A stretch of DNA of 64,000 nucleotides from assembly GCF_002479495.1 (NCBI RefSeq), contig NZ_DLNQ01000005.1:443095-507094 (forward strand), given 5' to 3'. Source of the DNA: Brevundimonas sp. UBA7506. Its GTDB lineage: Bacteria; Pseudomonadota; Alphaproteobacteria; Caulobacterales; Caulobacteraceae. A program made the position numbers and the translations under genes. Positions 30,386 to 31,818 of the stretch are shown here, piece by piece. Below the pieces are notes generated by a model. The model had not been told where the DNA came from and did not search any database. It saw only the letters and a program-made list of their open reading frames with translations. Numbering within the stretch: position 1 is the stretch's first letter; each line of letters starts with the position of its first letter.

Positions 30386-30415
30386 TTGACTGCCACGTCA
30401 CGCACGCCGTAGCTA
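30386..30415 (+). promoter_or_regulatory. Candidate tyrS promoter giving a leaderless leader ORF
   Basis: TTGACT (30386-30391), an 18-base spacer, then TAGCTA (30410-30415). Transcription would start about six or seven bases later, at 30421-30423, where the ATG of the 16-codon tyrosine-containing ORF begins (30422). Hexamer matches only; no experimental start is known. Confidence 0.45.
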
Positions 30416-30421
30416 GCGCCC

Positions 30422-30472
30422 ATGATCGCCGTCCGCGCCATTTCCGGCCTGTATTACCGTTCGCTGAGCTAG
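30422..30472 (+). CDS. Candidate tyrS leader peptide with adjacent tyrosines
   Basis: A 16-codon ORF, MIAVRAISGLYYRSLS, ends 89 bases before tyrS. Codons 11 and 12 are TAT and TAC, both tyrosine. The ATG sits at the predicted transcription start, suggesting leaderless translation. Downstream, GCGGC (30476-30480) can pair with GCCGC (30492-30496), which instead can pair with GGCGG (30504-30508), which in turn can pair with CCGCC (30533-30537). GACGG (30528-30532) can pair with CCGTC (30556-30560), bracketing the tyrS GGAG. A ribosome stalled for lack of Tyr-tRNA could shift this balance. Short peptides and GC-rich hairpins arise by chance, so this remains a hypothesis. Confidence 0.45.
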   Translation: MIAVRAISGLYYRSLS

Positions 30473-30561
30473 AGAGCGGCCGCGATCTCGTGCCGCCTTC
30501 GCTGGCGGTGCGACTTCCCGAAAGGAAGACGGCCGCCGGCATCCCTGCTACGGAGCCGTCC

Positions 30562-31818
30562 ATGACCGACCAAGCCTTCAAGTCCGACTTCCTCAAGACC
30601 CTGCAATCGCGCGGCTACATCCACCAGGTGACCCACCCGGTGGAGCTGGACGAGGCCGCCTCGAACGGGATCGTGACGGCCTATATCGGCTTCGACGCCA
30701 CGGCGCCGTCGCTGCACGTCGGCAGCCTGATCCAGATCATGATGTTGCGCCGCCTGCAGCAGGCCGGACACAAGCCCGTCGTCCTGATGGGCGGCGGCAC
30801 GACCAAGGTCGGCGACCCGACCGGCAAGGACGCCTCGCGCCCGCAACTGACCGACGAGACGATCCAGGCCAACATCGCCTCGATCAAGACCGTGTTCGAG
30901 AAGTTCCTGACCTTTGGCGACGGCCCGTCTGACGCCGTCATGGTCGACAACGATGAATGGCTGTCCAAGTTCGGCTACGTCGAGTTCCTGCGCGACTACG
31001 GCACGCATTTCACGGTCAACCGGATGCTGAGCTTCGACTCGGTCAAGCTGCGCCTGGAGCGCGAGCAGCCGATGACCTTCCTCGAGTTCAACTACATGCT
31101 GATGCAGTCAGTGGACTTCCTGGAGCTGAACCGCTCGCTGAACGTGACGCTGCAGATGGGCGGGTCGGATCAGTGGGGCAACATCACCTCGGGCGTCGAT
31201 CTGGTGCGCCGCGTGGACCAGAAGGCCTCGTTTGGCCTGACCACTCCGCTGCTCACCACGGCCTCGGGCGGCAAGATGGGCAAGACGGCCCAGGGCGCGG
31301 TCTGGCTCAACGCCGAACAGCTCAGCCCCTATGACTACTGGCAGTTCTGGCGCAACGCCGAGGACGCCGACGTCGGCCGATTCATGCGCCTGTTCACCGA
31401 CCTGCCGCTGGACCAGATCGCGCTTTACGAAGCGATGGAAGGCGCCGGCATCAACGAAGCCAAGAAGGCTCTCGCCGACGCCGCGACCTCGATGCTGCAC
31501 GGCTCCGAGGCCGCCCAGGCCGCCCGCGCCGCCGCGGAGGCCGCCTTCGAGAAGGGCCAACTGTCGGCCGATTTGCCCACCGTCGAGCTGCCGCGTGACG
31601 AGGTGATCGGCGCCATGATCGCCGCCGTCGTCGCCAAGGCCGGTCTGACGACCTCCAACGGCGAAGCCCGTCGCCTGGCCCAAGGCGGCGGCCTGCGCCT
31701 GAACGATGAAGCCATCGCCGACGGCGCACGCCTGATCGAGGCTGCCGATGTCAATGCTGACGGCGTTCTGAAGCTGGCCGCCGGCAAGAAGAAGATCGTC
31801 CTGGTTCGGCCGGTCTAA
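30562..31818 (+). CDS. tyrS: Tyrosyl-tRNA synthetase
   Basis: A 418-residue class I synthetase that charges tRNA-Tyr. The HIGH motif is HVGS (52-55), the tyrosine-binding region reads YIGFDATAPSLHVGS, QMGGSDQWGNITSG is the conserved active-site block, and the KMSKS loop is KMGKTAQGAVW. A C-terminal S4 RNA-binding domain (TSNGEARRLAQGGGLRLNDEAI) completes the TyrRS. The ATG at 30562 has GGAG six bases upstream. The bcp gene follows 12 bases later. Confidence 0.96.
   Translation: MTDQAFKSDFLKTLQSRGYIHQVTHPVELDEAASNGIVTAYIGFDATAPSLHVGSLIQIMMLRRLQQAGHKPVVLMGGGTTKVGDPTGKDASRPQLTDETIQANIASIKTVFEKFLTFGDGPSDAVMVDNDEWLSKFGYVEFLRDYGTHFTVNRMLSFDSVKLRLEREQPMTFLEFNYMLMQSVDFLELNRSLNVTLQMGGSDQWGNITSGVDLVRRVDQKASFGLTTPLLTTASGGKMGKTAQGAVWLNAEQLSPYDYWQFWRNAEDADVGRFMRLFTDLPLDQIALYEAMEGAGINEAKKALADAATSMLHGSEAAQAARAAAEAAFEKGQLSADLPTVELPRDEVIGAMIAAVVAKAGLTTSNGEARRLAQGGGLRLNDEAIADGARLIEAADVNADGVLKLAAGKKKIVLVRPV

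Follow-up and report, generated by a model that had tools for sequence, protein, structure and literature searches.

In a 64,000-nucleotide (nt) stretch of DNA from Brevundimonas sp. UBA7506 (assembly GCF_002479495.1, contig NZ_DLNQ01000005.1, positions 443,095–507,094; hereafter the window, numbered from its first letter), the tyrosine--tRNA ligase gene tyrS follows a short leader open reading frame (ORF) with two consecutive tyrosine codons and a chain of alternative RNA helices that extends to the tyrS Shine-Dalgarno (SD) sequence. Comparison of tyrS upstream regions makes it very probable that tyrS is subject to tyrosine leader-peptide attenuation in Caulobacteraceae; it is also likely, if with less assurance, that this ribosome-mediated attenuator works through a translational relay, most likely at the level of translation initiation. 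The comparison supports the leader ORF with its tyrosine codons, a fixed promoter spacing, five co-adapted putative helices, an SD sequence linked to the leader and the lack of a U-tract; ribosome stalling, the order of folding and a rise in tyrS output are what we infer. The parts of the locus named in the proposal, all on the forward strand, are:

30386..30415 (+), predicted leader promoter P1, with a TTGACT −35 element (30386–30391), an 18-nt spacer and a TAGCTA −10 element (30410–30415)
30422..30472 (+), leader ORF MIAVRAISGLYYRSLS, predicted to be leaderless, of 16 codons, with the stop codon TAG at 30470–30472
30452..30457 (+), Tyr-Tyr codons TAT TAC, the predicted sensor and stall site, from the conservation of Tyr-Tyr in model matches
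30562..31818 (+), tyrS, the regulated gene in the proposal, starting with the ATG at 30562 (TIGR00234, 367.5 bits, cut-off 113.8)

Six bases lie between TAGCTA and the leader ATG, and the 89 nt between the leader stop and the tyrS start are GC-rich and fold-prone, with a GGAG ribosome site at 30552–30555. The named relatives of the tyrS product are from Brevundimonas (identity up to 88%), the window itself is Brevundimonas-like, and a near-identical leader is present in B. bullata (L007). An earlier note on this DNA had proposed the promoter, the 16-codon ORF with TAT-TAC a set of mutually exclusive helices and a pair of complementary motifs that could bracket the ribosome site; each of these elements is present exactly where it was placed, and each proved to be conserved. 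A generic promoter scan, with a consensus of the E. coli type, gave P1 no score.

A named genome collection contributed 80 loci to the set of tyrS upstream regions, and a search of 299 genomes of the family, 291 of them with tyrS, provided 30 loci (one duplicate) and 114 further upstream regions. The resulting 229 sequences (228 loci plus the window) include some genomes twice, with L081–L085 repeating L005, L007, L014, L017 and L015 besides other duplicates, and the tyrS start was located in 227 (in L211 and L226, tyrS was not located by tblastn). An ORF search requiring Tyr-Tyr found such a leader, with its stop 40–200 nt upstream of tyrS, in 131 of the 227. These 131 loci yielded 118 distinct leaders, reduced to 114 by dropping L162, L191, L224 and L228, which have no in-frame start 78–116 nt past the leader stop, and then to 75 representatives at <90% identity. 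Alignment A1 holds 69 of the 75; L156 and L173, with TTG or GTG as the start, were unlocated, and the length outliers L035, L039, L154 and L202 are also omitted. Because the ORF search had required Tyr-Tyr, a second search was run with an RNA model of the stop-to-start region alone, which excludes the ORF sequence but was built from the 75 Tyr-Tyr-bearing loci and may miss diverged leaders. It matched 129 of the 227 upstream regions, 124 of which have Tyr-Tyr; the other five keep one Tyr at that position, as Tyr-Cys (L141, L052 and L121) or as a single Tyr (L041 and L227).

Among the 75 representatives the Tyr codons vary only synonymously (TAT TAC in 66, TAC TAC in five, TAT TAT in four). The leader peptide has 15–16 codons in 110/114 leaders, and Tyr-Tyr is followed by 3–4 codons before the stop in all 114, while residues 3–9 are highly variable. 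The element thus has the form of a conserved, putatively translated small ORF that precedes a gene and contains codons for the amino acid of that gene. Of the 114 leaders, 113 have TTGAC 35–38 nt upstream of their start codon, 88 of them at exactly 36 nt, and this fixed spacing predicts a transcript whose 5′ end is the leader start codon itself, i.e. a leaderless one. The −35 element coincides in part with a palindrome, TTGAC-N4-GTCAA, in several Brevundimonas-type loci (e.g. L014, L040 and L090), and this palindrome is possibly a regulator site. The conservation in close relatives that the earlier note had made a condition of its proposal holds for Caulobacteraceae, but not throughout the genus: of 12 loci named Brevundimonas in the named collection, five have the leader and seven, which differ in upstream context, lack it. 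Among the loci of that collection outside Caulobacterales, the sole Tyr-Tyr match is an unrelated 33-codon ORF in L060.

The region from the last codons of the leader to the tyrS ribosome site contains the motifs GCGGC (30476), GCCGC (30492), GGCGG (30504) and CCGCC (30533), and GACGG (30528–30532) and CCGTC (30556–30560) lie on either side of the GGAG. Six segments, each assigned from folding and a partner-swap test, would form five consecutive mutually exclusive helices, 1:2, 2:3, 3:4, 4:6 and 6:7:

30458..30465 (+), segment 1, pairing with 2; the codons that separate Tyr-Tyr from the stop
30475..30484 (+), segment 2, pairing with 1 or 3
30488..30497 (+), segment 3, pairing with 2 or 4
30501..30513 (+), segment 4, pairing with 3 or 6
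30530..30541 (+), segment 6, pairing with 4, or with 7, which covers the SD
30546..30558 (+), segment 7, containing the tyrS SD sequence GGAG (30552–30555)

The partner-swap test, adopted because alignment-based covariation analysis gave a null result (below), compares how well a segment pairs with its own partner and with the corresponding partner taken from another species; segments were cut by alignment columns, and representatives were treated as exchangeable, relatedness being handled by thinning and control pairs. For helices 1:2, 2:3, 3:4, 4:6 and 6:7, respectively, the z values were −6.8, −3.7, −11.2, −6.3 and −6.4 with the 75 representatives, −5.1, −3.4, −7.2, −4.3 and −3.8 with 35 (<75% identity), and −3.2, −1.3, −5.3, −3.9 and −3.4 with 21 (<65%). 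Six control pairs that are not in the model gave z values of −2.1 to +2.0 at all thinnings, with no clear advantage of the native partner (lowest p values, 0.014 for 2:6 with 75 representatives and 0.033 for 4:7 with 21). Compared with dinucleotide-shuffled versions, each helix in the 75 sequences is also more stable, with mean z values of −1.4 to −2.8. The predicted architecture is accordingly one of mutually exclusive downstream helices, the first of which overlaps the codons that follow the cognate ones.

In the proposed mechanism the mRNA would begin at the leader ATG, and the leader ORF would be translated from this leaderless 5′ end. With ample Tyr-tRNA the ribosome would pass the Tyr codons and depart, allowing 1:2, 3:4 and 6:7 to pair, the last of these concealing the tyrS SD. 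When Tyr-tRNA is scarce, the ribosome would stall at Tyr-Tyr and cover segment 1, so that 2:3 would form and free segment 4, which would capture segment 6 and thereby release segment 7 with the SD. This ordered five-step relay, like the single copy of the module before tyrA described below, goes beyond what the earlier note had put forward.

Sums of hairpin energies are consistent with such a switch: 1:2+3:4+6:7 (off) is favored over 2:3+4:6 (on) in 73 of the 75 representatives, and with segment 1 masked, in imitation of a stalled ribosome, 2:3+4:6 is favored in 54, both behaviors being seen in 52. In the off state the SD is paired through the co-adapted helix 6:7, as expected for a translational attenuator, with a mean probability of being unpaired, P(SD unpaired), of 0.142. 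An SD-like site is present at 66 of the 75 leader-bearing loci, a count favored by choosing the start with the better SD where several in-frame starts were possible, versus 8 of 49 tyrS loci that lack a Tyr-Tyr leader, a group that includes a few loci with single-Tyr leaders. L154 is the one representative without an SD candidate in the folding and SD analyses. A U-tract (at least five T in eight) follows 3:4 in only 3/75 and was unseen in 72/75, and a terminator scan found no terminator-like site at the locus; an intrinsic terminator, i.e. the hairpin and U-tract of the classical trp-type attenuator, was therefore rejected, as the earlier note had anticipated from the missing poly-U. The tie between the SD and the leader, together with the lack of a U-tract, favors translational control.

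Several observations weigh against this reading, beginning with the bias in the SD count just mentioned. A tree-based covariation test on all column pairs of a MAFFT alignment found none significant (best E 2.3), and RNAalifold returned four pairs only, all of 4:6, with zero double changes, probably because aligning the sequences leaves their helices out of register; the comparison of tyrS upstream regions suggested by the earlier note bore out the conserved Tyr-codon ORF, and partner swapping the co-adaptation, but column covariation was not seen. In the partner-swap test itself, helix 2:3 was non-significant (p 0.088) when thinned to 21 representatives. Only in the window and one other representative is the off state not favored (−36.0 versus −36.5 kcal/mol in the window), owing in the window to a weak 1:2 (−6.7 kcal/mol, compared with −12.2 in L007), which in turn reflects position 30473, an A here and a C in L007. 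Equilibrium folding of 113 sequences gave only a slight opening on stalling, with P(SD unpaired) rising from 0.146 to 0.195; the gain exceeded 0.2 in 17 sequences, and a loss greater than 0.2 occurred in three. Shuffled sequences went from 0.252 to 0.264, a mean gain of 0.012 (sd 0.011; highest of 30 rounds, 0.035) against the native 0.049. The claim that stalling exposes the SD is thereby weakly supported across the set and unsupported in the window, where the SD closes, from 0.21 to 0.07. Removal of segment 6 raised the mean P(SD unpaired) from 0.142 to 0.278, although the rise exceeded 0.2 in only 27 of 74 sequences (a fall of 0.2 was never seen), and in the window the change was only from 0.20 to 0.24.

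The modest thermodynamic opening of the SD would also fit a genuine tyrosine attenuator acting on transcription, in which ribosome position would govern Rho or a hairpin pause lacking a U-tract, and the SD hairpin would only lower basal translation. The 1:2, 2:3, 3:4 core is arranged like that of classical transcription attenuators, and the published relatives, the Caulobacter ilv leader (PMC4117421) and S. meliloti trpL (PMC7298713), are described as transcriptional in the passages concerned. We nevertheless judge control of transcription unlikely, as the U-tract is missing after 3:4 in nearly all representatives and as it leaves unexplained both the co-adaptation of 4:6 and 6:7 and the association of the SD with the leader.

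There is only a slim chance that the leader peptide is itself functional, with RNA structure secondary, either in trans, as peTrpL of S. meliloti works (PMC7298713), or as an arrest peptide sensing a signal other than Tyr-tRNA. Arg, or another of a small set of residues, often follows Tyr-Tyr, as such a peptide might require, but these positions overlap helix 1:2, which would account for their conservation; moreover, ORF length and the place of Tyr stay constant while residues 3–9 vary widely, and the downstream gene is tyrS or, in one case, tyrA. A random short Tyr-Tyr ORF in GC-rich, fold-prone DNA is the remaining alternative: GC-rich DNA folds easily, the single-sequence helix z values are moderate, and the outgroup locus L060 carries a Tyr-Tyr ORF of its own. 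Chance is, however, contradicted by the partner-swap result and by the shuffles, since a Tyr-Tyr ORF of 12–21 codons arose in just 4 of 1500 dinucleotide shuffles of the 75 upstream regions, which had been selected for having one, as opposed to 124/129 model matches, and we regard it as barely credible.

The distribution of the element was followed with a model, R1, of 119 positions and four pairs, which with so few pairs is mostly a sequence model. In 83 of 119 genomes of the family R1 had matches at E up to 0.01, the weaker of them being candidates; 20 places hand-picked from this search comprised 15 before tyrS, one before tyrA and four that appear chance-like. Of the 15 further tyrS leaders, 11 have Tyr-Tyr, three have one Tyr and one (L271) has none, and the Tyr-poor cases count against the proposal. 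A search of 289 genomes of the class, with stricter filters and 12 candidates scored per genome, gave matches in ten, namely the known tyrS leader and nine marginal ones without a Tyr-Tyr ORF in the searched stretch, and among 37 tyrS loci lacking this leader the best R1 match (E 0.0057) lay on the minus strand.

The tyrA case (L272; genome G100, contig C73) has the module ~150 nt before an ORF (L272:1053-2009:-) for a prephenate/arogenate dehydrogenase, i.e. tyrA (NF005694, 469.2 bits, cut-off 409). Its leader, MTSPARSRQRYYPRSQHS, has Tyr-Tyr, a GTG start and an upstream TTGAC, and all five hairpins fold individually (−11.6 to −19.3 kcal/mol). Placement before a gene of tyrosine biosynthesis supports tyrosine as the signal, in a single case from one genome; the module precedes tyrA at one of 30 tyrA loci examined, that of G100. 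L271, which precedes tyrS in G100 as well, keeps the structural elements of the leader without, by hand translation, any Tyr codon. Short ORFs also precede other synthetase genes: Trp-containing ones (often Trp-Arg or Arg-Trp-Arg) were found before trpS in six of seven located of 12 (L229, L231, L233, L234, L236 and L238), and Ile-Ile ORFs before ileS in two of 12 (L252 and L260), with a layout after the stop that looks unlike that of tyrS.

In Brevundimonas the leader stop precedes the ATG corresponding to the window tyrS start by ~82–96 nt, and in the L013 group by 110 nt, with an in-frame ATG at 84–86. In Caulobacter and Phenylobacterium the stop is farther off, but an in-frame start is found at the usual distance, giving a tyrosyl-tRNA synthetase (TyrRS) ~20 residues longer; by this usual-distance rule tyrS is extended by at least 10 codons in 79/114. 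The extensions contain in-frame GTG CTA in 67 of the 79 (e.g. L017, L019 and L025), at offset 27 in the examples listed, and CTA is a rare codon (in tyrS of up to 40 loci it accounts for 15 of 1713 Leu codons). GTG CTA would be part of a second promoter, conserved at the DNA level, and in Caulobacter and Phenylobacterium suggests an embedded promoter and two TyrRS forms. Among 64 loci lacking a Tyr-Tyr leader, 32 also have GTGCTA, 31–58 nt upstream of tyrS, and 28 of the 35 leader-bearing loci whose tyrS is not extended have TGCTA 15–19 nt upstream of its start; the TGCTA at 30546–30550 of the window, within segment 7, is possibly a second −10 element. On a broader proposal our confidence is evenly balanced: that a leaderless Tyr-Tyr ORF and a terminator-free relay of six segments and five helices, carrying the stalled-ribosome signal ~100 nt to the SD, form a portable tyrosine switch, used for tyrS across much of Caulobacteraceae and copied onto tyrA, with basal synthetase maintained from a second promoter that lies within the relay or beyond it.

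On the other side of P1, a divergent minus-strand gene (29237–30379), by appearance presumably anmK, has its start codon 6 bases from the −35 element. Elsewhere in the window a terC RNA motif (RF03067, 52.3 bits) lies at 28173–28236 (−), directly upstream of the minus-strand ORF 27150–28148, the usual position for this family.

The tyrS leader is very probably a variant of leader-peptide attenuators, a class known for other synthetases. The tyrosyl T-box of Firmicutes tyrS senses the charging of tRNA-Tyr by direct tRNA binding, without a leader ORF; gene and signal are alike, but the leader described here has an ORF, and no Rfam family, the T-box included, was found in it (30300–30700) even at E up to 5. 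In the erm and cat translational attenuators a stalled ribosome rearranges hairpins and frees the SD, through long relays in ermA, but antibiotics are sensed, as opposed to the amino-acid supply proposed for tyrS. Attenuation of aminoacyl-tRNA operons was reportedly the subject of a comparative study by Lopatovskaya and colleagues in 2010.

Closer to Caulobacteraceae, the uORFC-8-2 motif before cysS in Rhodobacterales, with proposed ribosome-mediated attenuation, likewise joins an alphaproteobacterial synthetase gene to a short ORF whose last part carries a tandem pair of cognate codons, but concerns cysteine and another order; with Tyr codons before tyrS and not Cys codons before cysS, the present leader is set apart by codons and gene (PMC8632094). 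Within the same family, Caulobacter crescentus has short leader coding sequences (CDSs) before the synthetase genes trpS and ileS and before ilv genes; ‘tyrosyl’ is absent from the main text of that study, whose supplementary CDS tables may list a tyrS leader (PMC4117421). The trpL/trpE(G) attenuator of Sinorhizobium meliloti shares tandem cognate codons, alternative helices and, by prediction for tyrS, a leaderless leader ORF, and differs in sensing tryptophan, in attenuating transcription with a terminator and in serving a biosynthesis gene (PMC7298713). The earlier note knew of no Tyr leader peptide of this kind, and we found no tyrosine leader-peptide attenuator of tyrS in the open-licence literature, most subscription papers and supplements lying outside that search, but leader peptides of other synthetases had already been published in Caulobacter. 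If the proposal is correct, it would add a tyrosine-specific leader-peptide attenuator in a family with a model bacterium among its members, and a case of proteobacterial amino-acid attenuation that ends, via a long relay, on the ribosome-binding site instead of a terminator; its codon requirement could be tested directly in natural variants, whose leaders have one Tyr, Tyr-Cys or no Tyr codon.
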